Shown one piece after another: positions 4,818 to 53,601 of a DNA stretch of 64,000 nt. Within the stretch, counting starts at the first letter, position 1, and each line of letters opens with the position of its first letter. Under the pieces are notes generated by a model, which was given only the letters and a program-made list of their open reading frames with translations, was not told the origin of the DNA and searched no databases. A program made the translations under genes and the position numbers. Source of the stretch: Arcticibacter tournemirensis (GTDB lineage Bacteria > Bacteroidota > Bacteroidia > Sphingobacteriales > Sphingobacteriaceae); contig NZ_VFPL01000001.1 of NCBI RefSeq assembly GCF_006716645.1, positions 1,302,001 through 1,366,000 of the forward strand, read 5' to 3'.

Positions 4818-4852
4818 TATCAAGTAACAAGTAGCTGGTATCAAGTATCAAG
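4818..4852. repeat. Heptad tandem repeat, 5 units (TATCAAG type)
   Basis: Five in-phase 7-mers: tatcaag, taacaag, tagctgg, tatcaag, tatcaag. Single arm, upstream of the Wzi-like pair. The rest of 4786-4981 shows no gene. Confidence 0.8.
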
Positions 4853-4981
4853 AGCCGCCAAGAGTGAGTAATTGAAAGCCGGGAGAAAGATAGTAAAGAT
4901 TCGCTATACAGAAAAAAAATAATGCGAGTTTAAACTTCGTCATAAGGTCAGCGTATTAACGATCAAAGACATTAATGACGG

Positions 4982-7357
4982 ATGGTGATGAAGATAAAGC
5001 CTTTTTTCGTTTTTTTGATAATTTCATTGATATTACAAGCTGTTAAAGTTAATTCCCAAACTGTAAGTCCTTTTAAATTACGTTACCAGACGGAGCAAAA
5101 GGGCGGCATTGTGTATGTTTCCAATACTATTCTTAGTTGTGAAAATTGTGATGCAGTAAATGAGTTACCTCCTAATGGAAAAAGTGATAATAATAATTTT
5201 ATTATGCATTATATTGACATTGATGCATCAACTGAAACATTCAGCAGCAGCTCGGCAGATCTGATCCTTCCTGACTGTTCCTCTATAACTTTCGCAGGGC
5301 TTTATTGGGGAGGAGCTATTAGCTCTACAAATAGTAGATTTAAAGATAAAAATAAAATTAAGTTAAAGAAGCCAGGAGCTACGGCGTATATTGATTTAAC
5401 TGCAGATAAAACGTGGGGGGGACAGTCTTTTAAAGATATCACTAGTATCGTAAAGTTGAGTCAACCGTCAAACGGTACTTTTACAGTTGCAAATGTTGTG
5501 GCAGATGAAGGGGTTGTTAACGTATATGCCGGATGGACGATAGTAATTGCTTATAAGCACGACCTTATGCCTCTACGAAACTTATCTGTTTTTGAAGGGC
5601 TCGTAGGTATCAATTTCCTAAGCAACGTAGAGTTTAGTATTTCAGGTTTTTTTTCTCCTCCCAACGGTCCTGTTAACTTTGATTTTGGGTTTGTTGCTTA
5701 TGATGGAGATCGGAGTTATAGTGGAGACTACTTAGAAATTAACAATCAAAAAGTTTTTGATTCGGCACATAATTCAGATAACCTATTCAATAGTTCTATT
5801 ACAAATAACGGGGAAGTCGTTCAAAGTAGAAATCCCGCTTATAATAATACGCTCGGTTATGAATCTAGCATTATTCACTTGAATAATGCGGATTTTAGGT
5901 ATTTGAAAAATGGTGCCAGATCTGCTCTGATAAATTTGGACACCGATATTGAATCATATTTGATAGGCGTCCTTACGGCCTCAATAGACATCTACAATCC
6001 CAACATTCAATTATCTCACCAATACCGCAACATCAGCAAATATGGTATTTCAGTACAAGCCGGAGAAACTGTTGAACTGCAGTATGACTTGAAGAACACA
6101 GGTAATGACGGAAGTACGAACACTGTTTTTATCGATACCATTCCTTCTCTCTTTGCATACGTAAAGGGATCTATAGAAGTTCAAGACATTAATGGCAACT
6201 GGAAAGCCCTGAGTGACCAGAGCGTTGATGATGCAGGAGAGTATATGGAGGCTGGAAGGCGGGTGCTGGTTAGACTGGGAGAGGGAGCGAATGCTTCAAG
6301 AGGTGGGGCTGTACCGGCAGATGGCCAGTTGAAAGTGCGCTATAAAATGCAGCTAATTGATGATGCTGAATTGTTGGGTTGTGCTCCCGCGCCTGTTTCT
6401 AAATATGGCTGGCTGCAATACTCGGGAAACGTAAATCCGGACAAGAGCTGGAAAGTAGCTTCGGATAAGGCTTTTTCTCAATATGATTGTTCTGGCGTTC
6501 GCAGTCCCCTGGTGCTGGCGCTGGAACCGCCATTGCCTCCCGGGGATTTAAATCTCACCTTTTATTGCCCGGTTTCTGTTGCTGATCTGGCTTTACCTAA
6601 AGGATACTCTCTATACAAAGAGGATAACACCACAGCAAGCAGAGGTATGCCTATGCCGGTTGCGAAAATATCTGAGTCGGGTACGTATAAGGCTTACCGC
6701 AGGCTGGCTGCGGGCTGTGAGTTCAGCTATACTATCCGGGTAAATATGGCGTCTATTGGTATTGCTGCACAACCTGCTCCACGGAAGATTGTGGAGGGGA
6801 AAAGCGCTGAATTTTCTGTGGAAACAAGCGGGCCTGATGTGAAGTACCAGTGGCAGGAGGATTCCGGTTATGATTCGTGGACCGACATACCGGGCGCCAC
6901 CGACCGGATTTTAACGCTGCGGAGCGTTTCGCTGAGCAAGAACCGGTCGCGTTACCGGGCGCTGATCTCTAATCCTTGCGGGCAGAAGCTGGTATCGTAT
7001 GCCGTTCTTCTGAATGTGGTGGAGAGCGAGGAGGGTACGCTGTTTGTGCCGAATGCATTTAGGCCTAACAGTGCGGTGGAGGAACTTACCCACTTTATAG
7101 TGAAAGGACGGAAACTTTCGCGCTGGCAGATGAGGGTTTATAATAAGTGGGACCAGCTGATCTGGGAAACTACTAAGCTGAACCCTGACGGCAGTCCTGC
7201 GGAAGGCTGGGATGGTAAGATTGGTGGTCAGGATGCGGCGCAGGGTATCTATCTCTGGGCAATCTCTGCCGTCTTCTGCGATGGCTCTGAATGGCAGGGC
7301 ATGAGTTTTAACCAGTCGGCACCGCGGAAAACGGGGATCGTTTATTTGATACGCTAG
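4982..7357 (+). CDS. Secreted T9SS type B cargo protein with gliding-motility C-terminal domain
   Basis: 791 aa with an N-terminal hydrophobic signal segment (residues ~5-25; start at 4982 or at the second ATG, 4988). The middle part has a DUF11/CARDB-like stretch (about 335-470, with LKNTGNDGSTN and FIDTIP) and an Ig-like stretch (about 610-680). The last ~90 residues are a gliding-motility-associated / type IX secretion type B sorting domain: LFVPNAFRPN, YNKWDQLIWET, EGWDGK and a terminal GIVYLIR. Such proteins are exported by Sec and then by the type IX system to the cell surface. Substrate or adhesin specificity is unknown. The first ~1 kb is clearly more A+T rich than the rest, suggesting a mosaic gene. 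Confidence 0.85.
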   Translation: MVMKIKPFFVFLIISLILQAVKVNSQTVSPFKLRYQTEQKGGIVYVSNTILSCENCDAVNELPPNGKSDNNNFIMHYIDIDASTETFSSSSADLILPDCSSITFAGLYWGGAISSTNSRFKDKNKIKLKKPGATAYIDLTADKTWGGQSFKDITSIVKLSQPSNGTFTVANVVADEGVVNVYAGWTIVIAYKHDLMPLRNLSVFEGLVGINFLSNVEFSISGFFSPPNGPVNFDFGFVAYDGDRSYSGDYLEINNQKVFDSAHNSDNLFNSSITNNGEVVQSRNPAYNNTLGYESSIIHLNNADFRYLKNGARSALINLDTDIESYLIGVLTASIDIYNPNIQLSHQYRNISKYGISVQAGETVELQYDLKNTGNDGSTNTVFIDTIPSLFAYVKGSIEVQDINGNWKALSDQSVDDAGEYMEAGRRVLVRLGEGANASRGGAVPADGQLKVRYKMQLIDDAELLGCAPAPVSKYGWLQYSGNVNPDKSWKVASDKAFSQYDCSGVRSPLVLALEPPLPPGDLNLTFYCPVSVADLALPKGYSLYKEDNTTASRGMPMPVAKISESGTYKAYRRLAAGCEFSYTIRVNMASIGIAAQPAPRKIVEGKSAEFSVETSGPDVKYQWQEDSGYDSWTDIPGATDRILTLRSVSLSKNRSRYRALISNPCGQKLVSYAVLLNVVESEEGTLFVPNAFRPNSAVEELTHFIVKGRKLSRWQMRVYNKWDQLIWETTKLNPDGSPAEGWDGKIGGQDAAQGIYLWAISAVFCDGSEWQGMSFNQSAPRKTGIVYLIR

Positions 7358-7360
7358 GTT

Positions 7361-7402
7361 TTAAGTGATGAATTATGGGTTATGAATTATGAGTTATGAA
7401 AT
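7361..7402. repeat. Heptad tandem repeat, 6 units (ATGAATT type), overlapping hipA stop
   Basis: Six in-phase 7-mers from ttaagtg to atgaaat. It starts 3 nt after the stop of the T9SS protein and runs into the 3' end of hipA, where it encodes the final His-Asn-Ser-stop. Confidence 0.8.
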
Positions 7403-8640
7403 GCCATAGCCATGTTTTCCTGTTCCCGGCGTGATAATTTATATTTGGCAGCAATGGCCGGCCATTTGGATACTGCGTTTTTAATGTTGTTAAAAATAGC
7501 GCTGGCTTCCTGTGGCTTTAGCCGGAAATGTTTTGCGACCGACAGGGCTAATTCCGGGTCAAGAGAATTGTCGTTTTCTGAAATATTTAAAGTCAAACCG
7601 TTGCCTTGTGGGTTGGCATTCATATCGTAGGCTGGTGAAAGTTCCCAGCCGTCTTCCCGCAATAAAAATCCATGGTTGCGCAAGTGATCATCGGTATTTT
7701 TTACCATGATATTGAAAACGATCCTTGCCCACAGCTCCTTTAGGTTATTGTTAACCTGACGCCCGTTTTGAATGATAAAAGCTGCGATGTCCAAATAGCT
7801 TGCCCCTGTGTGAAAATCAGTGCCGTCTTGCTGGCCAAGCAGGGTCATCGCTGATGCAAAGTGTATTCTGGTGGTTTGCTGGACGCGATCGAATCGCCTT
7901 GTCAGAAAGGTATGATGCCTTCCGGAAAATTGCTGAAGCCGTGCAGGTGCGACTGTGATACCCGAGTTCACCGCCAGTTCATAAACAACCATTTCCCATG
8001 CTCCAATATTGTGTTCATCATTGATACTTGGGAACTTGGCTATCCACAAATTTCCTTCCGGATCGTTCACACTGGCTTTAGGCCTGGCTCCGCCTAGAGA
8101 AGAACCGGGAGCCATCAGCATGTTTAGCCAACGTAGTTCTTCAGTTGAAGTCATCTCTTCGTTTTCAAGGCGTAAACTGGCATATTCGAGGTCACGCAGG
8201 TTAACCCAGGGCGGTGCAGCGAGCTCGGTAGCGTGACTCAAATATTCTCCGTCTTCGCTGGTTTTGAATCGAAGCCCGCCCATTCGGGTTCCGTCAAACA
8301 CGCCCAATAGGAAGTCTGACTCATTCAGGATACGCGGTTTTCGTTCTTCCTGACGCGAAATGATCGCCTCCCGTCTTTTCATTAGGACCCTTCCCCAACG
8401 ATCAGGCGATGAATCAAGGAACATGCCAAAATTCGGCTTACCATCGGCCAGATATTGCGGGCCTGAATATAATTGTAAGTCGGGATCGAGAATCTGGGCT
8501 TGTGGCCACTGAAGCCAATGCTCGCTATATTCAAAGGAAAATATTTCTCTTCCTCTTACAACCTCTGCACTCAATGTGCCAACCTGTATGGTTCGTGGTA
8601 ATCCAGCCCAATCTGCATAAACGAAAATTTTCGACGCCAT
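7387..8640 (-). CDS. hipA: HipA-family type II toxin kinase
   Basis: 417 aa, full length for HipA Ser/Thr kinase toxins, which in the studied cases phosphorylate glutamyl-tRNA synthetase and induce dormancy. Visible kinase elements are the P-loop-like GSSLGGARPK (179-188), the catalytic loop KNTDDHLRN (Asp317, Asn322) and the metal-binding YDMN (Asp339). The N-terminal subdomain with FGMFLDSSPDRWGR is also typical. All key residues are present, so it looks active. The antitoxin gene ends 4 nt upstream. The last three codons and the stop are formed by the heptad repeat. Whether the target is GltX is not shown by the sequence. Confidence 0.93.
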   Translation of the reverse strand: MASKIFVYADWAGLPRTIQVGTLSAEVVRGREIFSFEYSEHWLQWPQAQILDPDLQLYSGPQYLADGKPNFGMFLDSSPDRWGRVLMKRREAIISRQEERKPRILNESDFLLGVFDGTRMGGLRFKTSEDGEYLSHATELAAPPWVNLRDLEYASLRLENEEMTSTEELRWLNMLMAPGSSLGGARPKASVNDPEGNLWIAKFPSINDEHNIGAWEMVVYELAVNSGITVAPARLQQFSGRHHTFLTRRFDRVQQTTRIHFASAMTLLGQQDGTDFHTGASYLDIAAFIIQNGRQVNNNLKELWARIVFNIMVKNTDDHLRNHGFLLREDGWELSPAYDMNANPQGNGLTLNISENDNSLDPELALSVAKHFRLKPQEASAIFNNIKNAVSKWPAIAAKYKLSRREQENMAMAFHNS

Positions 8641-8979: not shown

Positions 8980-9003
8980 AGATTATTGTTTATTTTATAA
9001 AAC

Positions 9004-9066
9004 GTTATGAGTTGTGAGTATGGATTATAAGTTATGAATTATGGGTTATGTGTTGTGCGTTGGTGT
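9004..9066. repeat. Heptad tandem repeat, 9 units, between hipB and rfbC
   Basis: 63 bp in exact 7-bp phase. It begins gttatga, gttgtga, gtatgga, ttataag, ttatgaa and continues to ttgtgcg and ttggtgt. GTTG and TTATG words are mixed in one array, showing they belong to one family. Confidence 0.85.
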
Positions 9067-9082
9067 TTTAGACGTATTTTTG
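9053..9082 (+). promoter_or_regulatory. rfbC promoter: TTG - 19 bp - TATTTTTG
   Basis: -33 TTG at 9053-9055 lies inside a heptad unit. The exact -7 box TATTTTTG is at 9075-9082, 7 nt before the rfbC ATG. Predicts a near-leaderless mRNA. Confidence 0.65.
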
Positions 9083-10471: not shown

Positions 10472-11554
10472 CTAAGCGAAATCTTCGCCAAAGGTTGATT
10501 TGACGTCGGCTACAACCTGTTTTACTTCCTGCTCGCTGTTGCGGGGGACGATCATCAGTGTGTTGTTAGACTCTGCAATAATATAATCTTTCAGTCCTTT
10601 TACTACGATTTTTTTGCCTGCCGGGAGGTTGATCATGCAGCCGCTGCTGTTATAGAGTATAGCGCTGCCGGAGGGAACCACTACGTTTTCATGCTCGTCT
10701 TTTTGGGCAAGAGTATAGAGGGATGCCCAGGTGCCGAGATCTGACCAGCCGAACTCTACCGGAAGTACATACACGTTATCGGCCTGCTCCATGATGCCAT
10801 AATCGATGGAGATGTTCTGGCACTGTCCGTAGTTTTGGGTTAGAAATTCGGCTTCTTCGGGGGTGTTATATATTTCTTTTGCATCCTCAAACAAGGAATT
10901 CATTTCGGGAAGATGCTGATCAAATGCTTTTAGCACTTCAGCGGCGCTCCAAATGAAGATCCCCGCATTCCACAGGTACTCTCCGCTTCCCAGAAATGCT
11001 TCGGCGCGTTCTTTATCGGGCTTCTCTGTAAACTGCTGCACTTTACGGAATCCGTTTCCCAGCAGATGGTCGCTGAAGCGAATGTATCCATAGCCTGTAT
11101 CTGGCCGGGATGGCTGAATGCCCAGTGTAATGAGGCAGTTGTTCTCGCTCGCCGTTTGCAGTGCGTTGCTTACGTCTTTTGTAAACTGTGAGGTATTGAG
11201 TATGAGATGGTCGGATGGTGCCACTACTATCGCTGCTTCGGGATCGAGAGCGGCAATCTTGTGGCAGGCATAGGCGATGCAGGGCGCGGTGTTGCGCATT
11301 ACCGGCTCGCACAGTACCTGGTGGTACTGAATTCCTTTTAGTTGTTCTTTTACCAGCTCCCTGTATTTCTCGTTAGTGAGAATGTAGATATTTTCTTCGG
11401 GTACGATGTCTTTAAAACGCTGATAAGTAGCCTGGATGAGGCTCGTGCCGGTACCGGCAATGTCGATAAATTGTTTGGGATAAGAAGTGCGGCTTACGGG
11501 CCAGAAACGGCTGCCTACTCCTCCGGCCATAATAACTGCGTAGTAATTGTTCAT
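10472..11554 (-). CDS. manC: Mannose-1-phosphate guanylyltransferase
   Basis: 360 aa from the ATG at 11554. The longer in-frame extension runs through a heptad repeat and is not protein-like. Makes GDP-mannose from mannose-1-phosphate and GTP for glycan synthesis. N-terminal signature IMAGGVGSRFWPVSR with YPKQF, then EPVMRNTAPCIAYA, VVAPSDHLI and FTEKPDKERA. It ends soon after the nucleotidyltransferase and beta-helix parts and lacks the phosphomannose isomerase domain of bifunctional enzymes. Monocistronic, with a strong terminator. Confidence 0.94.
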   Translation of the reverse strand: MNNYYAVIMAGGVGSRFWPVSRTSYPKQFIDIAGTGTSLIQATYQRFKDIVPEENIYILTNEKYRELVKEQLKGIQYHQVLCEPVMRNTAPCIAYACHKIAALDPEAAIVVAPSDHLILNTSQFTKDVSNALQTASENNCLITLGIQPSRPDTGYGYIRFSDHLLGNGFRKVQQFTEKPDKERAEAFLGSGEYLWNAGIFIWSAAEVLKAFDQHLPEMNSLFEDAKEIYNTPEEAEFLTQNYGQCQNISIDYGIMEQADNVYVLPVEFGWSDLGTWASLYTLAQKDEHENVVVPSGSAILYNSSGCMINLPAGKKIVVKGLKDYIIAESNNTLMIVPRNSEQEVKQVVADVKSTFGEDFA

Positions 11555-11557
11555 TGG

Positions 11558-11592
11558 GTTGTGAGTTGTATGTGGTGAGTTGCGAGTGTTAA
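11558..11592. repeat. Heptad tandem repeat, 5 units (GTTGTGA type), upstream of manC
   Basis: gttgtga, gttgtat, gtggtga, gttgcga, gtgttaa in exact phase, starting 3 nt before the manC ATG. Confidence 0.75.
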
Positions 11593-12000: not shown

Positions 12001-13980
12001 TTGGAAAGACAGATTTTTAAGGGCTTAAGAGGCCTTGGCCAGAATATTTACATTTCGCTGCTGCTTAAGCTGCTTTTGGTTGCGGCGCTTTATACAGTTT
12101 GCCGCATAGCTTATTACCTGTTTAATACTTCATTGTTCCCGGCAATTGATGCCGGGGCGTTCCTGCTGATCCTGGCAGGGGGGCTGAAGTTTGACATCAG
12201 CGCCATACTTTATACCAATTCGCTGTATATCGCCAGCCAGATCATTCCTTTTAAATTCAGACATCATCCCCTCTATCAGAAGATTACTGCGGGGATCTTT
12301 TATGTGGTGAACGGACTGGCCCTGGTGGCTAATATTGCCGACATTGCTTATTATCCCTTCACCCTGAAACGTACTACCTTCACCGTGTTTTCGCAGTTTT
12401 CGGGCGAGCAGAACCGGCTGAGGCTCTTATCCCGGTTTTTGTTCGACTACTGGTATCTGCTGCTGCTGCTGGTTGTGTTGGTAATGGCCATGGTATGGCT
12501 CTATAAACGAATCGGGAAGCATAAGGTTACTTTCAGGAATCCGGTTGCTTATTACCTGAGCTCTTTGCTGATGATTCCGGTAGTGGCTGGTTTGTTTATC
12601 GCTGGTGCAAGGGGTGGCTTCAGGCATAGCACACGCCCTATTACGCTGAGTAACGCCGGCGAATATGTTGAGAACCCGGCCGAGCAGAACATTGTGTTGA
12701 ATACTCCTTTCGCCCTGCTGCGGACGATAAAGACGAAGTCGTTAAAGAAAGAGCAGTTTTTTTCGCAGCAGCAGCTGGATTCGTTGTATAATCCGCTTAA
12801 GGCTCCGGATAGTAGTGCGGCGCCTTTTATTAAAAAGAATGTAGTGGTGATCCTGCTGGAGAGTTTCAGCCGTGAATATCTCGGCGGCTTTAACCGTGAC
12901 CTTGAAGGGGGGAAATACAAGGGATATACTCCTTTTCTGGATTCGCTGATGGAGCGCAGCCTGGTGTTTACCAACGCCTATGCGAATGGCCGTAAATCGA
13001 TCGAGGGCCTTCCTTCGGTGCTGGCCAGTATCCCCGGAATACAGGAGCCTTTTGTGCTTTCTGACTATTCGTATAACCGGATTAACAGCTTCGGTAACCT
13101 GCTGTCGGCAGAGGGCTATCATACATCGTTTTTTCACGGCGCCCCCAATGGCTCCATGGGCTTCAGCTCTTTTGTGAAGATGGCCGGGATCAAAAATTAT
13201 TACGGCATGACGGAGTATGATAACGATGACGACTTTGATGGTATGTGGGGGATATGGGATGAGCCTTTTATGCAGTTCTGGGCACAGAACCTGAACCGCT
13301 TTAAACAGCCTTTCTTCAGCGCTCTGTTTTCGGTATCATCGCATCATCCTTTTAAGATCCCTGAGAAGTATGAGGGTCGCTTCCCTGAGGGTACCTTGCC
13401 CGTGCACCGTGGCGTAGGGTATACGGATTTTTCGCTGAAGCAGTTTTTTAAAACGGCGTCGCGTATGCCCTGGTATCGCAATACCCTCTTCGTTATTACT
13501 GCAGACCACTCTTCTGTGGCCTGGCATGAGGAATATAAAACTTCGCTTGGGGCTTATGCTGTTCCGATTATGATTTACGATCCTTCAGGGGATCTGAAAG
13601 GACGGAATGATCAACCCGTGCAACAGGCGGATATTCTGCCTACTGTGCTGAATTACCTGCATTACAAAAAGCCCTATTTTGCTTTTGGCAACGATATGAT
13701 TCGTTATTCGGATGACCACCCGGTTATACACTTTACGGATGGCCTGTACCAGATCATTATGGGAGACTTTGTCCTGATGTTCGATGGAGAGAAATCGGTG
13801 GAAATGTACAATTATCGCAGCGACCGGCTGCTGTCCCGTAATATTATTAACACCGGCGACCCGATGCAGAATAAGCTTGAAATGCACGTAAAGGCTTTTA
13901 TTCAGCAGTATAATGCTCATATGATCGATAATACGTTAACCGTAAATCATAATTCATCACTCAAAATTCATAATCCCTAA
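12001..13980 (+). CDS. LTA synthase-like phosphoglycerol/phosphoethanolamine transferase
   Basis: 659 aa membrane enzyme of the alkaline phosphatase/sulfatase superfamily. Five N-terminal transmembrane helices (within residues ~15-205), then a large periplasmic catalytic domain. Catalytic features: VVVILLESFS (metal-binding Glu), ANGRKSIEGLPS with Ser333 where LtaS has the nucleophile Thr, FHGAPNGSMGF, SSHHPF and ITADHSS (Asp502, His503). Starts at TTG 12001 because an in-frame TAG lies two codons upstream. Gram-negative relatives transfer phosphoglycerol or phosphoethanolamine to periplasmic glycans or lipids; the substrate here is unknown. The C-terminal tail is encoded by a heptad repeat. 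Confidence 0.85.
   Translation: MERQIFKGLRGLGQNIYISLLLKLLLVAALYTVCRIAYYLFNTSLFPAIDAGAFLLILAGGLKFDISAILYTNSLYIASQIIPFKFRHHPLYQKITAGIFYVVNGLALVANIADIAYYPFTLKRTTFTVFSQFSGEQNRLRLLSRFLFDYWYLLLLLVVLVMAMVWLYKRIGKHKVTFRNPVAYYLSSLLMIPVVAGLFIAGARGGFRHSTRPITLSNAGEYVENPAEQNIVLNTPFALLRTIKTKSLKKEQFFSQQQLDSLYNPLKAPDSSAAPFIKKNVVVILLESFSREYLGGFNRDLEGGKYKGYTPFLDSLMERSLVFTNAYANGRKSIEGLPSVLASIPGIQEPFVLSDYSYNRINSFGNLLSAEGYHTSFFHGAPNGSMGFSSFVKMAGIKNYYGMTEYDNDDDFDGMWGIWDEPFMQFWAQNLNRFKQPFFSALFSVSSHHPFKIPEKYEGRFPEGTLPVHRGVGYTDFSLKQFFKTASRMPWYRNTLFVITADHSSVAWHEEYKTSLGAYAVPIMIYDPSGDLKGRNDQPVQQADILPTVLNYLHYKKPYFAFGNDMIRYSDDHPVIHFTDGLYQIIMGDFVLMFDGEKSVEMYNYRSDRLLSRNIINTGDPMQNKLEMHVKAFIQQYNAHMIDNTLTVNHNSSLKIHNP
13945..13979. 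repeat. Heptad repeat forming the 3' end of the LTA synthase-like gene
   Basis: aatcata, attcatc, actcaaa, attcata, atcccta in phase. Read in frame it encodes the final NHNSSLKIHNP and the stop, a tail without conserved structure. Confidence 0.65.
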
Positions 13981-14090
13981 CACGCCTTCATTTTTATGGC
14001 AACTTTTTTTTATATGGCGTAACATTTGTTGTTGGTTTAACGTTAAAATACTGTTACTAACGTAATTATTAACCATTTAAAACAAGCCCC

Positions 14091-14189: not shown

Positions 14190-14194
14190 CGGGA

Positions 14195-14460
14195 GTTGAA
14201 GGTTCAGAGTTGAAAGTTGAGGGTTCTCGGATGAAAGTACTTAATAGCGGAAAGCCATTGAGAGTTGAAGGTTCAGGGTTGAAAGTTGAAGGCCCCTTAA
14301 AGCTAATTGCCCACAGCTAATCGCCTTTAAAGCGAAAAGCAGAAAGGTTAAAGCAAATTGCCCAACGCTAATAGCCAATAGCCAATAGCAATATTTGATA
14401 GCTTTTTTAAAGTTTAAAGCGTTAAGTTTAAGGCTGACTGCTTATATCTGATAGCTGTTT
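14195..14460. repeat. Composite heptad repeat region
   Basis: Starts with five exact units (gttgaag, gttcaga, gttgaaa, gttgagg, gttctcg) and continues with a second GTTGAAA block near 14260-14292, then AGCTAAT/ATAGCCA/AAAGC words to about 14460. No coding potential is seen. It fills much of the 0.9 kb gene-poor stretch 13981-14891. Confidence 0.6.
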
Positions 14461-22292: not shown

Positions 22293-22349
22293 TTATTTAG
22301 TTTATTGATTTGTAAAGATAGTTATTTATTTTGAATGCTAATAAAATTA

Positions 22350-22515
22350 GTTATGAGTTATGAGTTGCGGGTTGCGAGTTGTAGGTTGTAGGTTGCGAGT
22401 TGAGTGTTGTTTGTTTCATGTTTATGAAATAATACTAATCAAAAATACGTAATAATATTTTGAGTTCTGGATTGCTATTATAAATTTACAACCTACAACC
22501 TACAACCTACTACCC
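22350..22515. repeat. Paired heptad repeat, 9 + 4 units, between recA and nth
   Basis: Left arm 22350-22412: two gttatga units, then gttgcgg, gttgcga, gttgtag, gttgtag, gttgcga, gttgagt, gttgttt, in exact phase. Right arm 22488-22515: acaacct x3 and actaccc, the inverse of the gttgtag word. The right arm encodes the last residues and the stop of nth. Confidence 0.85.
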
Positions 22516-23147
22516 GCTATTTCATAGTATTTGCAAAACCAGCTTATGGGGCAGATTTCACATTTTGGCCTGCGGGCAACGCATATGTATCTGCCATGAA
22601 GAATAAGCCAATGGTGTGCACGACCAAGTGTCTCTTTAGGCAGATACTTCATTAGTTGCTTTTCTACGGAAAGGGGAGTTCGGGCGTTTTGAGTCAGTCC
22701 AAGCCTGTTGGCCACACGGAAGACATGCGTATCTACAGCAATTGCAGGTGCCTGATATACCACAGACGCAATTACATTGGCGGTTTTACGACCTACGCCC
22801 GGCATCTTTTGAAGTTCTTCTATTGACGAGGGTACTATCCCCTGGAACTCGCCTGTGAGCATACGGGCCATTCCTATCAGGTGTTTTGCTTTGTTATTTG
22901 GGTAACTTACGGTCCGGATATATTGAAATACTTCTTCCACGGAAGATGCAGCCAGGGTATATGGATCCGGAAAGCGTTCGAACAAAGCCGGTGTAATTTG
23001 ATTTATCCGTTTATCGGTACATTGGGCCGAGAGAATCACTGCCACCAGCAGCTCGTAAGGGTTTGTGTAGTGAAGTTCTGTTTTTGCATCCGGCTGATGA
23101 GTTGAAAAGTACTCTACGAACGCTTTAAAACGATCTTTCTTTAGCAT
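22500..23147 (-). CDS. nth: Endonuclease III
   Basis: 215 aa bifunctional DNA glycosylase/AP lyase removing oxidised pyrimidines. Helix-hairpin-helix MPGVGRKTANV with catalytic Lys121, catalytic Asp139 in AVDTHVFR, and the [4Fe-4S] cysteines C189-x6-C196-x2-C199-x5-C205. The extreme C-terminus (GSRL-stop) derives from the heptad repeat. Begins 15 nt after a small conserved-looking ORF that follows the ECF sigma gene. Confidence 0.96.
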   Translation of the reverse strand: MLKKDRFKAFVEYFSTHQPDAKTELHYTNPYELLVAVILSAQCTDKRINQITPALFERFPDPYTLAASSVEEVFQYIRTVSYPNNKAKHLIGMARMLTGEFQGIVPSSIEELQKMPGVGRKTANVIASVVYQAPAIAVDTHVFRVANRLGLTQNARTPLSVEKQLMKYLPKETLGRAHHWLILHGRYICVARRPKCEICPISWFCKYYEIAGSRL

Positions 23148-24180: not shown

Positions 24181-24195
24181 CATTTTTTATTACAA

Positions 24196-31665: not shown

Positions 31666-31668
31666 TTC

Positions 31669-33371: not shown

Positions 33372-33384
33372 TATAGTATAGAAT

Positions 33385-33412: not shown

Positions 33413-33469
33413 AATATTTATCTGTATGAGTATACCTGAGCTGATGAAAAGTATCTGTATTAATTATTG

Positions 33470-34492: not shown

Positions 34493-34511
34493 CAAAGTGT
34501 TGGAGTGGAAA

Positions 34512-34698
34512 GTTGAAGGTTGAAAGTTGAAAGTTGCGATTGCAGGTTGAAAGTTGGGTTGAAGGTTGCGTGGGGAAAGAAAAGAAGTATAAGTACAAAG
34601 TAGTGGAAAGCATAAAGGCGAAAGCAGAAAGCTTAAAGTTGGTGAAAACGAAACAAACTGAGTGATGAATGCTTACGGTTGAAAGCTAATTGCCAATT
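34512..34698. repeat. Heptad repeats between the TauE/SafE permease gene and ribF
   Basis: 34512-34572 carries gttgaag, gttgaaa, gttgaaa, gttgcga and later GTTGaaa/GTTGcg units, with two phase slips. AAAGC-rich words follow. 34678-34698 is gttgaaa, gctaatt, gccaatt, running into the ribF stop codon. No gene is seen in 34444-34696. Confidence 0.7.
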
Positions 34699-38300: not shown

Positions 38301-38335
38301 AGTCAATTTTAAGATACGCGAAAATAGTGATTTGA

Positions 38336-38384
38336 GTTGAAAGTTGAACTTTAAAAGTTGAAAGTTAAAAGCTAAACGTTGAAA
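38336..38384. repeat. Heptad tandem repeat, 7 units (GTTGAAA type)
   Basis: gttgaaa, gttgaac, tttaaaa, gttgaaa, gttaaaa, gctaaac, gttgaaa in exact phase between the divergent ftsX and leuS; a further GTTGAAA lies near 38410. GTT- and GCTAA-type words occur together. Confidence 0.8.
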
Positions 38385-38479
38385 GAAGCGGGACAAGTTT
38401 AGAGTCTAAAGTTGAAAGTGAAGTGTGTTTTACATGCAACTCATCGCTGTTAATCTGCTTCAAATTCAGCTCAAATTGC

Positions 38480-38491: not shown

Positions 38492-41296
38492 ATGGATTAC
38501 CAGTTTAGAGAAATAGAGAGAAAATGGCAACAGTTTTGGTCAGAAAATCAGACTTATAAGGTTGATAATAACTCCGAAAAGCCTAAATATTATGTGTTAG
38601 ACATGTTCCCTTATCCTTCGGGAGCGGGCTTGCACGTAGGACATCCTCTAGGATATATTGCCTCAGATATTTTTGCCCGTTATAAACGCCTTAAAGGGTT
38701 TAACGTTTTACATCCGATGGGTTATGACTCATTTGGGCTTCCTGCCGAGCAATATGCCATCCAGACCGGGCAGCATCCTGCGGTAACAACAGAACAGAAT
38801 ATTGCTACTTACCGGAGGCAGCTTGATCAGATTGGGTTTTCTTTCGATTGGAGCCGTGAAGTTCGGACGAGTGATCCTTCTTATTATAAATGGACACAAT
38901 GGATCTTTATGCAGTTGTTTAATTCATGGTACAACCTTGAATCAGACAGAGCAGAGTCGATAAAAGAGCTGGAAATTCATTTTTCGGCATCTGGAAGCGC
39001 AGGCGTAAAGGCTGTTTGTGATGAAGATGTTAAAAGCTTTACTGCTGACGAATGGAAGCAAATGACTGAACGCGAGCAGCAGGAAGAGCTTTTGAAATAT
39101 CGCCTAACCTATTTAAGAGAGAGTACCGTGAACTGGTGTCCTGCACTTGGAACGGTGCTTGCCAACGATGAGGTAAAGGATGGAGTCTCAGAAAGGGGAG
39201 GATATCCTGTAGAACAGAAGAAAATGATGCAGTGGAGTATGCGCATCACAGCGTATGCCGACCGGCTTCTTCAGGGCCTGGATACCATAGACTGGCCTGA
39301 GCCCCTGAAAGAGATGCAGCGAAACTGGATCGGCAAAAGTACAGGGGCCAGTGTGAAGTTTAAAGTTGAAAGTTCAGAGCCAACTCACAACTCCATAGAA
39401 GTGTTCACAACACGTGTAGATACGATCTTTGGTGTCACTTTTCTGGTTATTGCCCCCGAGCATGAGCTGGTACCTTTATTGACCACTCCGGAACAAAAGG
39501 AAGAAATAGAAACATATATAGCCCAGGCCAGGAAGAAATCTGAGCTTGACCGCATGGCCGATACGAAGACTGTATCGGGAGCCTTTACGGGAAGCTATGT
39601 GCTGAATCCTCTTAACGGTGAGAAGGTACCTGTTTGGATAGCCGACTATGTACTGGCAGGCTATGGTACAGGTGCCGTAATGGCTGTACCTTCGGGTGAC
39701 CAACGCGACTGGCTCTTTGCAAAGCACTTTAATCTTCCTGTTATTCAGATCCTCGATAAGCAGAAAGATGTTGAGCATGAAGCTGATCCTACAAAAGAAG
39801 GCCGTTACATAAATTCTGACTTTATTAATGGACTGACCTACCAGGAAGCGATCCCCGTTTTAATTAATAAACTGGAAGAGATCGGCGCAGGCAGGGCAAA
39901 AATACAGTACCGGATGCGCGACGCCATTTTTGGTCGCCAGCGTTACTGGGGAGAGCCTGTCCCCGTTTATTTTAAGGAAAATGTTCCTTACCTGATAGAA
40001 GAAAGTGAGCTGCCTTTGGTTTTACCTGAGGTAGATAAATATCTGCCTACGGAAGCTGGTGATCCTCCATTAGGACGGGCAAAAGAGTGGAAGTACAGAG
40101 GAGAGGCTCCTTATGAACTTAGTACGATGCCTGGCTGGGCAGGTTCAAGCTGGTACTGGTATCGTTATATGGCATCGCCGGAAGAAAGACAGGGAGATAC
40201 GTTTGCTCCGCAGAAAGCAATCCAATACTGGAAAGATGTCGATCTGTATATCGGCGGTTCTGAACATGCCACCGGTCACCTTTTATACAGCCGTTTCTGG
40301 AACAAATTTCTGAAAGACCTGGCTCTTGTAGAAGAGGAAGAACCGTTTAAGAAGCTGATCAATCAGGGTATGATCCAGGGGAGGTCGAACTTCGTTTACC
40401 GTGTTATTAATGACGACGGAGTGGGAACTCATGTTTTCGTGTCGTACGGATTGAAAGACCAGTATAAAACTTCTCATATTCATGTTGACGTTAATATAGT
40501 CGAGAATGAAGTGCTCGATCTGGATAAATTCAGGAGCTTCAGGCCTGAATTTGAGAATGCTGAGTTTATACTTGAGAATGGCAAGTATATATGCGGTGTA
40601 GAGGTGGAGAAAATGTCGAAATCGAAATATAATGTTGTAAATCCAGACGACATTATAGAACGTTACGGCGCAGATACCCTTCGTTTATACGAAATGTTCC
40701 TTGGTCCGCTTGAGCAAAGCAAGCCATGGAATACAAACGGTATAGAGGGCGTATTTAAGTTCCTCCGCAAATTCTGGAAGCTCTTCCATAATGATCAGTT
40801 TGAGTTTTTCGTATCTGACGAGCAACCGTCACGCGCAGAATTGAAGTCGCTGCATAAGATCATCAGGAAGGTAGAGGAAGATATAGAGCGCTTCTCATTT
40901 AACACCTCTGTATCCAGTTTTATGATCTGCGTAAATGAGCTGACAGATTTAAAATGTAACAAACGCCAGATCCTGCAAGATTTGGTTATCGTTCTGGCGC
41001 CCTATGCTCCTCATATTACCGAAGAGCTGTGGACGCTTCTGGGTAACCAGCCGGGAACTTTCTCTGATGCTGCTTTTCCGAAGTTTAATCCTGACTTCCT
41101 GGTAGAAGATGAGTTTGCTTATCCTATTTCGGTAAATGGAAAAATGAAGATGAACCTCAATATCTCTCTGGCCCTTGAAGTTCCGGAAATAGAAAAGGTG
41201 GTTCTCGAAAATGCTGCAGTTCAAAAGTTCCTTGACGGAAAACCTCCTAAAAAGGTGATTGTAGTTAAAGGCAGAATTGTAAATATTGTGATTTGA
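38492..41296 (+). CDS. leuS: Leucyl-tRNA synthetase
   Basis: 934 aa class I synthetase. Start [16 protein letters not shown] at 38492; the upstream in-frame stretch overlaps the -7 box. HIGH-type [31 protein letters not shown], editing domain with TTRVDTIFG, and KMSKS in [15 protein letters not shown] large insertion before KMSKS (about 625-700, [17 protein letters not shown]) fits the Bacteroidota form. At residues ~288-301 the coding DNA looks like a heptad repeat pair. Confidence 0.97.
39353..39394. repeat. Heptad-like repeat inside leuS coding sequence
   Basis: gtgaagt, ttaaagt, tgaaagt, tcagagc, caactca, caactcc: six 7-mers with a GTTGAAAGTT-like left half and a CAACTCaCAACTC right half. 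Encodes a loop ([11 protein letters not shown]) between two editing-domain strands. Confidence 0.5.
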
Positions 41297-44961: not shown

Positions 44962-46026
44962 ATGGCAACACTTTTTAGTCCTCTTAAAATAAGAGGTGTA
45001 GAGCTGCGGAACAGAATCGCTGTTTCTCCGATGTGTCAGTATTCTGCAGAAGACGGATTTGCAAATGACTGGCACCTGGTTCATTTAGGCAGCAGAGCAG
45101 TCGGCGGAGCCGGACTCGTTATCGCTGAAGCGACGGCGGTATCACCAGAGGGAAGAATAACGCCTGCCGATCTCGGCATCTGGACCGATGACCATGTAGC
45201 ACCTCTGCGAAGGATCGTAGATTTTATACATGCTCAGGGGAGTGTAGCCGGTATACAAATTGCACACGCAGGGAGAAAAGCCAGTAAAACATCTCCCTGG
45301 AACGGCGACAGGTTCCTTGATCTGGAAGAAGGAGGATGGCACACGGTTGCTCCCAGCGCTATGCCATTTTCTGAAGGCGACCGGTTGCCTCATGCTCTTA
45401 CTCCTGAAGGGATTGAAAATGTTATCATCGATTTCCATGCAGCTGCAAAAAGGGCTCTGGATGCCGGATTTAAAGTACTCGAAATACATGGAGCTCATGG
45501 CTATCTTCTCCATGAGTTCTTATCTCCCCTGTCGAATTTAAGAACCGATAATTATGGAGGTTCTTTTGAGAACCGGACGAGACTGCTTCTTGAAGTTACT
45601 GAAGCGGTACGACTGGTATGGCCGGAAGAATATCCTTTGTTTATTCGTATTTCGTCGACTGATTGGGTTGAAGGCGGGTGGACAAGCAGCGATTCTGTAA
45701 AATTAGCTACCTTTTTGAAGGAGAAGGGCGTTGATTTGATCGATTGTTCTTCGGGCGGGAATATCCCTAATGTTAAAATACCGGCAGGCCCGGATTACCA
45801 GGTAGAATTTGCAGAAGCGGTCCGTAAAGGTGCGGGTATCATGACTGGCGCTGTTGGGATTATCACGATGCCCGAACAGGCTCAAAGAATAATAGCGGAC
45901 GAAAGGGCCGACATTGTGCTGCTGGCCCGTGAACTGCTGCGTGACCCTTATTTCCCCTTGCACGCAGCTAAAGCGCTTGGAGAAGATATCAAATGGCCGG
46001 TGCAGTATGAGAGAGCGAAAAGGTAG
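44962..46026 (+). CDS. NADH:flavin oxidoreductase, OYE/YqjM family
   Basis: 354 aa from MATLFSPLKIRG at 44962; a TTG 18 nt upstream is less likely. FMN-dependent ene-reductase: SPMCQYSAEDG with the YqjM-type Cys, HLGSRAVGGAGLVIAEATAV, QIAHAGRKAS, EIHGAHGYLLHEFLSPLSN, and the C-terminal FMN phosphate site TGAVGII with DIVLLARELLRDPYFPL. Reduces activated C=C bonds; physiological substrate unknown. Confidence 0.93.
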   Translation: MATLFSPLKIRGVELRNRIAVSPMCQYSAEDGFANDWHLVHLGSRAVGGAGLVIAEATAVSPEGRITPADLGIWTDDHVAPLRRIVDFIHAQGSVAGIQIAHAGRKASKTSPWNGDRFLDLEEGGWHTVAPSAMPFSEGDRLPHALTPEGIENVIIDFHAAAKRALDAGFKVLEIHGAHGYLLHEFLSPLSNLRTDNYGGSFENRTRLLLEVTEAVRLVWPEEYPLFIRISSTDWVEGGWTSSDSVKLATFLKEKGVDLIDCSSGGNIPNVKIPAGPDYQVEFAEAVRKGAGIMTGAVGIITMPEQAQRIIADERADIVLLARELLRDPYFPLHAAKALGEDIKWPVQYERAKR

Positions 46027-46028
46027 TT

Positions 46029-46150
46029 GTTGTAGGTTGTAAGTTGCAGGTTGTGGGTTGCAGGACGAAAGAATTAGGATTTATGCAAGTTTAACCTACA
46101 ACTCATATAGCATTTAGTCCTGCAACCCATAACACAGAACTCACAACTCA
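46029..46150. repeat. Paired heptad repeat (GTTGTAG type) between OYE and L,D-transpeptidase genes
   Basis: Left arm 46029-46063: gttgtag, gttgtaa, gttgcag, gttgtgg, gttgcag. Right arm about 46091-46150 with AAC recurring every 7 bp (46124, 46131, 46138, 46145). Lies at the 3' ends of two converging genes. Confidence 0.82.
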
Positions 46151-46151
46151 T

Positions 46152-46970
46152 TTAGCTTCCCGCGAGCATCTGCTGGCCTGCGCCAAAATGGCTTACTGCT
46201 GATGCTTCATCCAGATAAGACGACGCATATTTAACAGTAGCCGGGCCATTGATAAATAAAGTTGTTTTGTCCTTAATTGTATTGATGATAGCAGGGGTCA
46301 GCTCAACAGGAACCGCGGGACAACCATAACTTCTGCCGAGGCGTCCGTGCTGTTTAATAAAATCTGAGCTAACATATTCGGCTCCGTGTACCACTACGGC
46401 TCTGTTCAGAGCATTTGTATTGAACCCTTCATCCATCCCGTTTAAGCGGAGGGAAAGACCGTGTTTTCCATGGTAAGTGTTGCTTGTGATGTAAAAACCA
46501 AGACTGCTCTGGTGCGATTCGGAAGTATTGGAAAAGCCCGTTGCGAGGTTATCGCCGCTCCCCTGACCGTGTGCCACCAATGTATTAAACAATAATTTCT
46601 TACTTGCCAGATCCACTATCCAAAGACGTTTCATGGTACTTGGCCTGTTAAAGTCGGCAATAGAAATAATCTGTTTATCTGAAGAAACAAGTCCGGAAGT
46701 CCTGAAATTAAAATAGCCGGTTACAGCTTTGCGGAATACGTCGAAGTCAAGACCAGAGACATCCAGCTTCGCTGTTGTGTATATCTCCGATATATAGGTG
46801 TCAAAAGCTTCTGTTGCCGATACCGGCTTAGTTATCACAGATACTTTGCCTGTTGAATCTTTTGTGTTTTGCGTTATTGTTGTGGTGTCATCTTTCAGAG
46901 ACCAGCTCAAAGCGGTAATACCTAATGCTAAAATGATATAGGTTGCTCCCTTAAAAATCCTCTTTCTCAT
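46152..46970 (-). CDS. Murein L,D-transpeptidase catalytic domain protein
   Basis: 272 aa. An N-terminal membrane or signal helix (about 8-24), a spacer, then the YkuD-like catalytic domain with VVVHGAEYVS (His195) and GRLGRSYGCPAVP (Cys217 in the SxGCP motif). Forms 3-3 peptidoglycan cross-links or attaches proteins in the periplasm, or acts as a related transpeptidase. Active-site residues are intact. Monocistronic. Confidence 0.85.
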   Translation of the reverse strand: MRKRIFKGATYIILALGITALSWSLKDDTTTITQNTKDSTGKVSVITKPVSATEAFDTYISEIYTTAKLDVSGLDFDVFRKAVTGYFNFRTSGLVSSDKQIISIADFNRPSTMKRLWIVDLASKKLLFNTLVAHGQGSGDNLATGFSNTSESHQSSLGFYITSNTYHGKHGLSLRLNGMDEGFNTNALNRAVVVHGAEYVSSDFIKQHGRLGRSYGCPAVPVELTPAIINTIKDKTTLFINGPATVKYASSYLDEASAVSHFGAGQQMLAGS

Positions 46971-48633: not shown

Positions 48634-48641
48634 CAAATATA
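48634..48641 (-). promoter_or_regulatory. glyS promoter -7 box TATATTTG, 7 nt before start
   Basis: Exact TAnnTTTG on the minus strand; implies a leaderless or near-leaderless mRNA. Confidence 0.55.
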
Positions 48642-48648
48642 TAATTCA

Positions 48649-48782
48649 GCCGTTAGCAATTAGCTATCAGCCTTTAGTTTTTCGATCTCCTCTGTACAAA
48701 ACAAAATAAAGCAATTGTTTTTATTCCAATATATAAATGTTTATAGCAATTTTGAAATCTGAAAGAAAGCTAACAGCTAATT
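48649..48782. repeat. Heptad repeats between glyS and the GldA-like gene
   Basis: gccgtta, gcaatta, gctatca, gccttta (48649-48676) and the inverted gctaaca, gctaatt (48769-48782), the latter ending directly at the ATG of the next gene. Confidence 0.6.
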
Positions 48783-51394: not shown

Positions 51395-53506
51395 ATGGCA
51401 AGAGATTTAAAATATACAAGAAATATAGGTATTGCTGCCCATATTGATGCTGGTAAAACCACCACCACTGAGCGTATCCTTTATTATGCGGGTGTTAGCC
51501 ACAAAATTGGTGAAGTGCACGAAGGTGCTGCAACAATGGACTGGATGGCACAGGAGCAGGAGCGTGGTATTACCATCACTTCGGCTGCTACTACCGTTAA
51601 CTGGAAATACAGAGGTCAGACGTACCACATCAATATTATTGATACCCCGGGACACGTGGATTTTACTGTTGAGGTAAACCGTTCTTTGCGTGTATTGGAT
51701 GGACTGGTTTTCTTATTTTCTGCAGTTGATGGCGTTGAGCCTCAATCTGAGACAAACTGGCGCCTGGCAAATAACTATAATGTTGCCCGTATCGGTTTCG
51801 TTAATAAAATGGACCGCTCTGGTGCTGACTTCTTAAAGGTTGTTAAGCAGGTTAAAGATATGCTTGGAAGCAATGCAGTTCCTCTGCAGTTGCCTCTGGG
51901 AGCAGAAGACAGCTTTAAAGGTGTAATTGACTTAATTAACTTCCGTGGAGTTGTTTGGAATGAGCATGATAAAGGGATGACCTTTACCGAAGTTCCTATT
52001 CCTGATGATATGATTGCTGAAGCAACCGAGTGGAGAGAGAAATTACTTGAGTCTGTAGCAGAGTATGACGAGTCTTTAATGGAGAAATTCTTTGAAGCTC
52101 CTGAAACTATTACAGAACGGGAAGTTTTAGACGCTTTACGTCAGGCTGTTCTGGATGCCAAGATCGTTCCTATGGTATGCGGTTCATCTTTCAAGAATAA
52201 AGGTGTACAGACCATGCTTGATTATGTGATGGAATTACTACCTTCACCTATGGATGTTGAAGGTATTGTAGGTCATCATCCTGATACAGGAGCTGAAATC
52301 CTTCGCAGACCAGATGTAAACGAGCCTTTTTCTGCATTAGCGTTTAAAATTGCTACCGACCCGTTTGTTGGCCGCTTATGCTTTATTCGTGTTTATTCGG
52401 GTAATCTCGAGGCAGGTTCTTACGTGTACAATATGAGATCGGCCAATAAGGAACGTATCTCTCGTATCTTCCAGATGCATGCTAACAAGCAAAACCCAAT
52501 CCCTAACGTAGGTGCTGGTGATATTGCTGCTGTTGTTGGATTTAAAGACATCAAAACAGGAGATACTCTATGCGACGAGAAGAATCAAATTATCCTTGAG
52601 TCGATGATATTCCCTGAGCCGGTAATTGGTTTAGCTATTGAACCTAAGACTCAGGCTGACGTTGATAAATTGGGTATGGCTTTGGCTAAATTAGCTGAAG
52701 AAGATCCGACATTCCACGTTAAGACAGATGAAGAGACTGGTCAGACCGTAATTTCAGGTATGGGCGAGCTTCACCTTGATATTTTAATGGATCGTTTAAA
52801 ACGTGAATTTAAGGTAGAAGTGAACCAGGGTGCTCCTCAGGTAGCTTATAAAGAAGCTATCACGGGTACTGTACAGCATCGTGAAACCTATAAGAAACAA
52901 ACCGGTGGTCGTGGTAAGTTTGCGGATATCCAGGTGGTAATTTCACCTATCGATGCCGACTACGAAAAAGGCGGTCTTCAGTTTGTGAATGAAATTTCGG
53001 GTGGTGCTATCCCCCGCGAATTTATTCCATCTGTTGAAAAAGGATTCGCTGCTGCGATGGCTAATGGTGTTTTAGCTGGTTACCCTGTTTCCGACATGAA
53101 GGTGCGCCTTATTGATGGTTCGTTCCACGCAGTCGATTCAGACGCGCTGTCTTTCGAGATTTGTGCCCGTTCTGCCTTCCGCGAAGCTTTACCTAAAGCA
53201 CGCCCGGTATTAATGGAGCCAATTATGAAAGTAGAGATACTTACCCCAGAAGAAAATATGGGTGATGTAATTGGTGATATGAACCGCCGTCGTGGTCAGC
53301 TTTTAGGTATGGATACCCGTGCCGGATCGCAAGTAATTAAAGCTACTGTACCTCTTTCAGAAATGTTTGGTTATGTAACTCAGTTACGTACGATCACTTC
53401 TGGCCGTGCAACTTCAACAATGGAATTTGATCATTACGAAGAAGCTCCTAAGAACGTTCAGGACGAAGTAATTGCTAAAGTAAAAGGTAAAAAAGCGAAT
53501 GCTTAA
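51395..53506 (+). CDS. fusA: Elongation factor G
   Basis: 703 aa translocation GTPase. G1 AHIDAGKTT (18-26), G3 DTPGHVDF, G4 NKMD, then domains II-V with [15 protein letters not shown] and [14 protein letters not shown] and the ending [13 protein letters not shown]. 94-nt gap after rpsG. Standard str operon position. Confidence 0.99.
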
Positions 53507-53512
53507 TTAAAA

Positions 53513-53601
53513 GTTGAAAGTTGCAGGTTGTGAGTTGAAGGTCTTGACAGCTTTCTGAAAGGCGTTTAGCATACAACACACAACTTGCAACCCACAACAC
53601 A
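53513..53601. repeat. Paired heptad repeat, 4 + 4 units, between fusA and rpsJ
   Basis: Left arm gttgaaa, gttgcag, gttgtga, gttgaag (53513-53540); inverted right arm caacaca, caacttg, caaccca, caacaca (53574-53601). Lies inside an operon that is normally continuous, so it cannot be a full terminator unless rpsJ has its own promoter. Confidence 0.88.

Follow-up and report, generated by a model that had tools for sequence, protein, structure and literature searches.

A stretch of 64,000 nucleotides from Arcticibacter tournemirensis (contig NZ_VFPL01000001.1, positions 1,302,001 to 1,366,000; the whole of it is called the window here) carries, at many of the junctions between its genes, runs of degenerate 7-bp words repeated in tandem, often with a second run facing the first from the other strand. 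The question raised by this locus is where such heptamer arrays come from and what keeps them. The arrays are one family of degenerate 7-bp words, lying mostly between genes and with one strand purine-rich, and they are a real, new variant of the known but unexplained heptamer repeats of bacteria. The explanation that we favor, with somewhat less than even confidence, is that they are intergenic hairpins grown in place by slippage and by copying from arm to arm, and kept perhaps as transcription boundaries.

The genome of the window (G000; 5.66 Mb in two contigs, the window lying on C1) is one of six from a single genus, G000 to G005, within which array presence is patchy: arrays occur in G000, G002 and G004, and G001, G003 and G005 are array-free. 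The nearest named proS loci are those of Pararcticibacter amylolyticus and Pedobacter sp. SYSU D00535 (92% each), followed by Desertivirga xinjiangensis (89%) and Paradesertivirga mongoliensis (87%), which places the genome in the family Sphingobacteriaceae, close to Pararcticibacter. An array was recognized as a segment with at least 17 lag-7 matches in 28 positions. An earlier note, made from the letters of the window, had listed runs of in-phase 7-mers, and 22 of its 23 arms overlap such segments; the miss is 48769, which has two words only, and at the listed arm 46091 the segment begins at 46114. In the intergenic DNA of the window, lag-7 identity is 0.338 against 0.276 expected (z=12.0), with lags 14 (z=10.4) and 21 (z=9.5) close behind, lags 1, 3 and 28 also raised (z of 8.0, 3.7 and 3.8), and lags 5 and 8 flat (z=0.3 and 0.2). 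In the coding DNA of the window lag-7 identity is 0.251, not above that at lags 8 and 10. Counted over intergenic regions of at least 50 bp, with dinucleotide shuffles as the control and with open reading frames (ORFs) called crudely (longest first, minimum 80 to 100 codons), 13 of 36 regions in the window hold an array compared to 0.3 in shuffles, and there are 23 lag-7 segments compared to 0.8, with 0-3 segments at other lags from 4 to 13. An even sample of the genome, made of 20 evenly spread 20-kb stretches (400 kb), gave arrays in 19 of 158 intergenic regions (2.7 in shuffles) and 29 segments against 3.5, with a lag-7 excess of z=3.7. The excess over shuffled intergenic DNA that the note had set as a test is present in both, and the window is an array-dense part of the genome. 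Most other G000 stretches were picked by array hits, so that densities there are biased.

Across relatives, the pattern (GTTGNRR)x3 matches 93+116 times in G000, 492+533 times in G002, once in G004, and not at all in G001, G003 or G005; of 60 relatives searched, 15 show at least one match. The backward-read control also matched (25+39 in G000, 191+156 in G002) by way of the same GTTG blocks and is therefore no clean control. By the array threshold, arrays lie in 25 of 82 intergenic regions of the G002 sample (shuffles 2.7), a biased density because the sample was picked mostly by hits, 9 of 10 stretches outside contig C263 being on contigs that already showed pattern hits. The corresponding figures are 9 of 73 for G004 (shuffles 1.0; overall lag-7 excess just z=0.9), 12 of 60 for Mucilaginibacter sp. 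OK283 (shuffles 1.3) and 2 of 35 for Paradesertivirga (shuffles 0.3), and in the array-free samples 0 of 36 for G003 (shuffles 2.0) and 1 of 43 for G001 (shuffles 2.7). Array DNA of the AAAGTTG/AAAGCAG type has matches in 115 of 251 genomes of the family, in 12 of 25 genera, in a search that scored at most a few candidates per genome, so that per-genome counts mean little. Collections of plasmids and phages returned no match to the arrays, with a simple-repeat filter that may hide such queries. Rfam gave no match in the window at gathering scores, and the window has no tRNA.

The earlier note had proposed that the differing words belong to one evolving system, and this is borne out. When aligned over strand and phase, 163 arrays of G000 fit a single matrix, approximately [ACT][AG][AG]GTT[GA], at z=37 against column-permuted arrays, and the 26 arrays of the even sample do so at z=10.9. 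Arrays of G002 and G004 score higher with the G000 matrix than all of 200 permutations; the 17 arrays of Mucilaginibacter fit it weakly, beating 198 of 200, and a matrix built on them alone reaches only z=2.2. The word types, HRRGTTG, CRAGTAT/CAAGACA, TGRRTTA, AAAGCNG, TTRGCNA and ACARKKG, are by eye one or two changes apart, and arrays have a median of six words, with no G tract in the matrix. The CAAGTAT type recurs in a facing pair of Mucilaginibacter and at the fusA-rpsJ junction of G006, a member of another genus. Word positions are unequal in their freedom, position 1 being rarely G and positions 2-3 mostly purine. A letter table was built on arrays chosen for GTTG, which makes the conservation of GTTG there partly circular and the matrix test the fairer of the two. 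This unequal freedom, together with a matrix common to several species, is what would be expected if the arrays were rows of binding sites, with one heptamer per subunit of a DNA- or RNA-binding protein. Such a reading is hard to reconcile with sites at which whole word types have been swapped between species, and the fixed letters of the GTTG subset owe something to the way in which the subset was chosen; no candidate protein is at hand, no search for one having been made, and we regard binding-site rows as quite improbable.

The most striking property of the arrays is their geometry. Neighboring arrays not more than 100 bp apart face each other, with purine-rich strands inward, in 30 cases and are reversed in 2, with 13 and 6 in the two same-direction orders (4 of 155 segments had no skew). 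Ratios of facing to reversed pairs are 27:1 in G000, 7:0 in G002 and 4:0 in Mucilaginibacter by G-C skew, and 16:1, 6:0 and 3:1 by purine content; with a combined score the ratio is 3:0 across the named loci L010-L088 and 2:0 across additional stretches of Mucilaginibacter and Paradesertivirga. At control lags of 5, 6, 8, 9 and 10 there are 12 neighboring segments together, of which two are facing. Arrays are also oriented relative to genes: in G000, 71 of 89 point away from the nearest ORF and 18 toward it (50:8 on the stop side and 21:10 on the start side), and in G002 25 of 30 point away. Both polarity counts in G000 rest on the window and on hit-picked stretches; the gene-relative count omits arrays with a G-C difference below 4 or without two flanking ORFs, and arrays inside ORFs (9 in G000, 5 in G002) fall outside it.

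One way to generate facing pairs is by an enzyme acting at break ends, such as a telomerase-like reverse transcriptase (RT) or an end-joining polymerase, that adds purine-rich repeats to both 3' ends before they are joined. Head-to-head joining of such extensions would give the facing geometry directly, and insertion at short conserved junctions, described below, is also what it would produce. There is a precedent in DRT10, a bacterial RT that, in the available portion of its description, makes tandem-repeat DNA on a non-coding RNA template (PMC12632851). The arms themselves speak otherwise. Four genomes together supplied 42 facing pairs. In these an arm aligns better with its own partner than with an arm from a different pair (mean 19.6 compared to 11.4), and shuffling the words in one arm lowers the alignment score (mean z 1.49; 64% of pairs above 1), a shared word order that independent extension does not predict. 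Nor does a fixed template predict local duplication of words, which is seen when arrays of at least 6 words (91 in G000 and 26 in G002) are pooled: identical words are enriched at distance 1 (z 2.3 in G000, 3.9 in G002) and at distance 2 (z 4.2 and 5.7), with no excess at distance 3 (z 0.3 and 0.1). Duplication at one or two steps and the likeness of arms fit slippage in 7- and 14-nt steps combined with copying from arm to arm.

Slippage might be all there is. If 7 nt is the length that slips most easily, arrays could accumulate neutrally, without function, selection doing no more than barring them from genes. The local word duplications agree with this, as do sites that abut the limits of conserved sequence, and in many prokaryotes no long simple repeat is commoner than the heptamer, for which a polymerase-footprint explanation has been offered (Mrazek 2007, as cited in the portion of PMC4679880 available). 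However, neither the 30:2 facing geometry, nor the outward orientation in G000, nor a word matrix that holds across species is predicted by neutral slippage, and we consider it unlikely as a full account.

Comparison of conserved junctions shows that arrays have been gained at particular sites. The note had set as a second test that relatives should lack an array at an otherwise conserved junction, and two junctions provide such cases. The gap between fusA and rpsJ was compared in 17 genomes of the family and 12 outside it. It measures 57-66 bp in G001, G003, G005, G008, G010, G012 and G015, barely more than a leader hairpin, and 90 bp without an array in G007. With hairpins it is 153 bp in G000, 325 in G002, 109 in G016, 116 in G006, 112 in G011 and 125 in G009, where the best lag-7 counts in 28 positions are 19, 27, 20, 16, 13 and 18, respectively, those of G006 and G011 falling under the threshold of 17; by eye, facing heptamer hairpins are visible in G000, G002, G006, G009 and G016, whereas in G011 they are harder to make out. 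In G004 the gap is 149 bp, with a count of 17 and a differing sequence. Outside the family, the 12 gaps are 7-84 bp, with one of 292 bp, and hold no arrays. The second junction, between an FMN oxidoreductase gene and a YkuD gene, is about 11-22 bp in G001 and G003 and carries arrays in G000, G002 and G004, with different words in each. Upstream of a uvrA-like gene, the arrays of G000 and G004 start at the same flank and differ in word type. That the same sites hold different words across species indicates that positions outlast words.

Three further observations concern intergenic sites. In G017 (L226) and G018 (L228), from two other genera, the fusA-rpsJ gaps hold GC-rich hairpins where others have heptamer pairs, with arms that resemble CCCCTCTCC/GGAGAGGGG, so that more than one kind of hairpin has come to occupy this gap. 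The rpsJ leader (window 53609-53659) has AATAGCTCT within an inverted repeat that is found in 16 of the 17 family genomes (not in G012); to judge from its sequence, and with no Rfam match at gathering scores, it looks like an S10-operon leader. The draft of G004 (L124-L126) has runs of N, which may be assembly gaps at hairpins, at several intergenic positions where G000 has arrays.

Units within otherwise clean junctions also bring to mind non-autonomous mobile elements, with heptamer arrays as their ends and a transposase that reads 7-bp steps. A body some 90 bp long, inside which lies an inverted repeat (TACAACACATT...AATGTGTTGTA), has 45 matches in G002, the loci including L117 (G002:C263) 4256-4343, 7099-7191 and 16900-16992, and L137-L166. 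Of the 30 copies examined, 23 have a heptamer array, not always of the same word type, directly against the 5' end of the body and joined to it at almost the same point; 27 of the 30 were properly placed (L140, L143 and L154 are misplaced, and L142 and L145 are the same copy). The body may be an insertion with a preference for the ends of arrays, or a mobile unit's conserved core, and its position next to arrays keeps the mobile-element reading alive. At E 0.001 the five remaining genomes of the genus gave no match to it, and a search for Y1 transposases, positive in 11 of 29 genomes overall, gave none in the six of the genus. In 464 kb of G000, covering the loops and flanks of 248 intergenic regions, just 25 of 2247 alignments are not 7-periodic, with no recurrent shared sequence and none of the listed non-periodic sequences at more than three places; an internal sequence common to the copies and lying between terminal inverted repeats, as expected of a miniature inverted-repeat transposable element, was not found there, and a 94-bp body was found in G002 only. 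Furthermore, the arms of one site can differ in word type, as they do at fusA-rpsJ of G002. Mobility of facing pairs thus appears distinctly unlikely. A different repeat, about 119-136 bp in length and containing a long inverted repeat (GTGCTTCTTCGA...), is dispersed over three places in G000 (L098 2232-2630, L105 9827-10061 and L094 17849-18267), where its copies are 81-86% identical.

The note had also suggested an enzyme that copies 7-nt steps, and the genes that might encode one do not follow the arrays. Matches to RVT_1 number 11 in G000, 0 in G002 (an assembly 87% complete) and 3 in G004, compared to 3 in G001, 0 in G003 and 1 in G005; the absence of a match in array-rich G002, as far as its incomplete assembly shows, and the matches in array-free G001 and G005 give no support to the note's enzyme and tell against a break-end RT, and the lack of a Y1 transposase gives the note's enzyme no support either. 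Ku, which end joining would call for, is in all six genus genomes, as break-end extension would have it, and hence in the array-free ones too, for which reason it was set aside as the cause of the arrays; SbcD and MutS1, likewise in all six, were also set aside. Taken with the arm and word evidence, this makes a break-end enzyme improbable. Four of the RT matches of G000, at C1 1508330, 3296407, 3427854 and 4944935, have identical scores and 454-aa frames and are possibly copies of one group II intron-like element; at 2.79 Mb there is a further pair of long RT frames, of 604 and 616 aa, close to each other.

Because trans-acting genes do not track the arrays and loops and flanks hold no recurrent sequence, growth in place is preferred. 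Sites are gained at conserved junctions, after which the position stays while the words turn over. Growth would proceed by replication slippage in 7- and 14-nt steps, and intrastrand template switching, which is known to perfect quasi-palindromes, would keep the two arms alike. The resulting hairpins may then persist as transcription boundaries at gene ends, or in place of them, a weaker part of the proposal for which the evidence is modest. If the hairpins do act as boundaries, purines would be favored in the 5' arm and pyrimidines in the 3' arm, the arrangement of intrinsic terminators that work in both directions. Divergent gene pairs hold fewer arrays than their number would suggest (4 of 89 arrays, whereas 48 of 353 gene pairs are divergent), several arrays start at stop codons, and array-bearing gaps make up 9 of 79 divergent, 64 of 258 tandem and 9 of 47 convergent ones. 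In convergent gaps of G000, a canonical terminator is present in 1 of 9 with an array compared to 20 of 38 without (uncorrected p=0.03), and the 5' arm of canonical terminator stems in G000 is purine-rich in 39:19 of 60. By RNA folding, the hairpins at 22350, 24187, 31669, 46029 and 53513 beat shuffles on both strands (z -3.5 to -10.5), and the pairs of the window are long imperfect hairpins, unlike the short GC-rich stem and T run of a canonical intrinsic terminator. The note had counted about six sites with inverted arms, one more than these five; the 48649/48769 pair reaches z of -1.2 and -2.9 only.

A good deal weighs against this account. The terminator exclusion is one test at p=0.03; in convergent gaps of G002 the figures are 1 of 6 and 4 of 7 (p=0.27), and tandem gaps show no exclusion between array and terminator (11 of 64 and 29 of 194, p=0.69). 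The purine lean of canonical stems is weaker than that of the arrays, and weaker still in the array-free G001 and G003 together (17:12). One facing pair, that at 24187, sits between divergent genes. The geometry also has its exceptions: the two orders are even (2:2) for neighbors 101-200 bp apart, one Mucilaginibacter pair is reversed by purine content beside three facing, and the tendency to point away from the nearest ORF is absent in G004 (2 of 6) and not clear-cut in Mucilaginibacter (5 of 8), two genomes with few arrays. Single arrays at 9004, 38336 and 28334 do not fold (z -1.8 to 0.7). Among the 43 single arrays of G000, however, 30 obey the orientation rule, so that hairpin function alone fails to explain orientation. 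As for slippage, which the note had already suggested, the pooled duplication at distances 1 and 2 stands in its favor, but an array-by-array test of word order is null (p<0.05 in 2 of 64 arrays in G000 and 1 of 19 in G002). The decay of array flanks gives no clear direction of growth (p=0.053 in G000, 0.84 in G002), and no change in array copy number at the level of strains is visible in the genomes compared.

Several known repeats invite comparison. The short tandemly repeated repetitive (STRR) heptamers of cyanobacteria also form dispersed arrays of several word types, with other words and in another phylum, and facing pairs are to our knowledge not among their features. Repetitive extragenic palindromic (REP) and bacterial interspersed mosaic elements (BIME), which are associated with RAYT transposases, are intergenic hairpins in inverted pairs as well, but the arrays have no conserved hairpin core, and the Y1 transposase is missing from the genus genomes. 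Integron core sites (GTTRRRY) were considered and dropped, both the letters and their order being different. The closest parallel is with the GGGNATC-type heptamers of Xanthomonas and Nostoc, which the available sections of Rehm et al. 2015 (PMC4692102) describe as mostly non-coding and nearer to the 5' neighboring ORF, on the coding strand after stops and on the non-coding strand before starts, and scarce between divergent ORFs; most sites are common to two related species, with length and sequence varying, and inverted repeats are mentioned. The arrays have in common with them a 7-nt tandem unit, an intergenic position and, in G000 and G002, a purine- or G-rich strand that runs away from the nearest ORF. 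They differ, as far as those sections go, in that GGGNATC heptamers have quadruplex-forming G tracts and prefer four units, whereas the arrays are far more degenerate, with no fixed G tract and six words at the median, and have had their facing pairs counted.

A second comparison is with direct repeats of TAACTGA, reported in the accessible part of MacGregor 2015 (PMC4679880) from Beggiatoaceae, cyanobacteria and five Bacteroidetes. In one Beggiatoaceae genome they are mostly forward and just before start codons, the same direction as in the rule found here, and a Microcystis sample is mixed: relative to a start codon six are forward and eight reverse, and another eight lie between stop codons. 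Like the arrays they sit at gene edges, other heptamers lie beside them in some Bacteroidetes, and the complement TCAGTTA resembles the TGAGTTA words, but by that account they are one near-exact word where the arrays are degenerate. G000 has no run of three exact TAACTGA units, and it is not among the 18 of 395 Bacteroidota genomes with TAACTGA arrays. In the other Bacteroidota 13 of 20 such arrays point away from the ORF, a weak lean, and a scripted count found 0 of 4 neighboring pairs facing, whereas by eye several loci look facing. The note's remark that it knew of no such family described from Bacteroidota is not wholly accurate, given the five Bacteroidetes just mentioned, although the TAACTGA type is not in G000. 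A literature search by titles and abstract openings, mostly without subscription journals, returned no work on Sphingobacteriaceae arrays of degenerate heptamers and none that states a rule for facing pairs. DRT10, as the part of its report consulted has it (PMC12632851), is a bacterial route to tandem repeats that needs an RT and a non-coding RNA, and RT presence here does not track the arrays.

Within the window the arrays are distributed as follows, with the strand given for the purine-rich words. Facing pairs occupy five places. The recA-nth pair has its left arm at 22339..22427 (+; TGAGTTA/CGGGTTG/TAGGTTG words) and its right arm, which adjoins the nth stop codon, at 22470..22530 (-; TAGGTTG). 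The pair before the uvrA-like gene lies at 24187..24294 (+; CAAGTAT/CAGGTAT, the arm whose start is the same as that of the G004 array) and 24297..24391 (-; CAAGTAT/CAAGACA/CAAGTAG). A third is at 31663..31742 (+; TGAATTA/TGAGTTA) and 31738..31798 (-; TGAGTTA/TAAGATA). The pair between the FMN oxidoreductase and YkuD genes starts at the stop codon of the former (46018..46083, +; TAGGTTG/CAGGTTG) and ends at that of the latter (46114..46159, -; TGAGTTG/CAGGACT), and the fusA-rpsJ pair runs from right behind the fusA stop codon (53495..53545, +; AAAGTTG/CAGGTTG) to just before the rpsJ leader (53562..53608, -; TGTGTTG/TGGGTTG). The array at the start of proS (48636..48690, -; ATAGCTA/AAGGCTG) has a partner at 48769 that is below threshold.

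Single arrays on the + strand are a lag-7 segment of CAAGTAT-type words at 4814..4858; TGAATTA/TGGGTTA words at a stop codon between convergent genes (7354..7411); words passing from TGAGTTG to TGAATTA at 9000..9070; TGAGTTG words at 11546..11592; and TTAGTAT/CAGGTAT words past a stop codon at 28319..28373. One at 13921..13984, of TGAATTA words, has its purine-rich strand on the - side. Several arrays in a run fill 14190..14442 (+), AAAGTTG words being followed by AATAGCC and AAAGCNN types. A short weak array of TCAGATA words (33372..33422, +), an array of AAAGTTG/AAGGTTG words (34496..34558, +) and one of AAAGCAT/AAAGGCG/AAAGCAG words, with AAAG in phase and the rest free (34601..34643, +), are followed by the ftsX-leuS array of AAAGTTG/AAAGCTA words (38325..38431, +). 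Those at 14254-14295, 14350-14442, 34601-34643 and 38393-38431 lie beyond the list in the note. Conversely, the stretch at 39353, which the note had placed with the others, is a 7-periodic segment (39336..39394, +) internal to the reading frame of leuS, where it falls in a loop that differs in length from relative to relative, and is a doubtful member.

The wider parallels suggest a bolder idea, namely that one general process underlies otherwise unrelated heptamers: at intergenic breaks or stalled ends, the purine-rich strand would be lengthened away from genes in 7-nt steps and copied back as a facing arm, with purine-type words here, GGGNATC in Xanthomonas and Nostoc and TAACTGA elsewhere, and the orientation rule would be its signature. 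The weak orientation in G004 and Mucilaginibacter and the mixed Microcystis repeats, as given in the available part of PMC4679880, lower its probability, and we hold it to be a long shot. For the heptamer repeats of cyanobacteria, Xanthomonas and Beggiatoaceae there is no agreed mechanism. What is new here is the facing-pair rule, the likeness of arms, the local duplication of words, the empty and filled sites, and the patchy presence within one genus. With arrays that are dense in places, degenerate and geometrically paired, and with empty sites to compare them to, both the origin of 7-nt arrays and their role as boundaries become testable in Sphingobacteriaceae.

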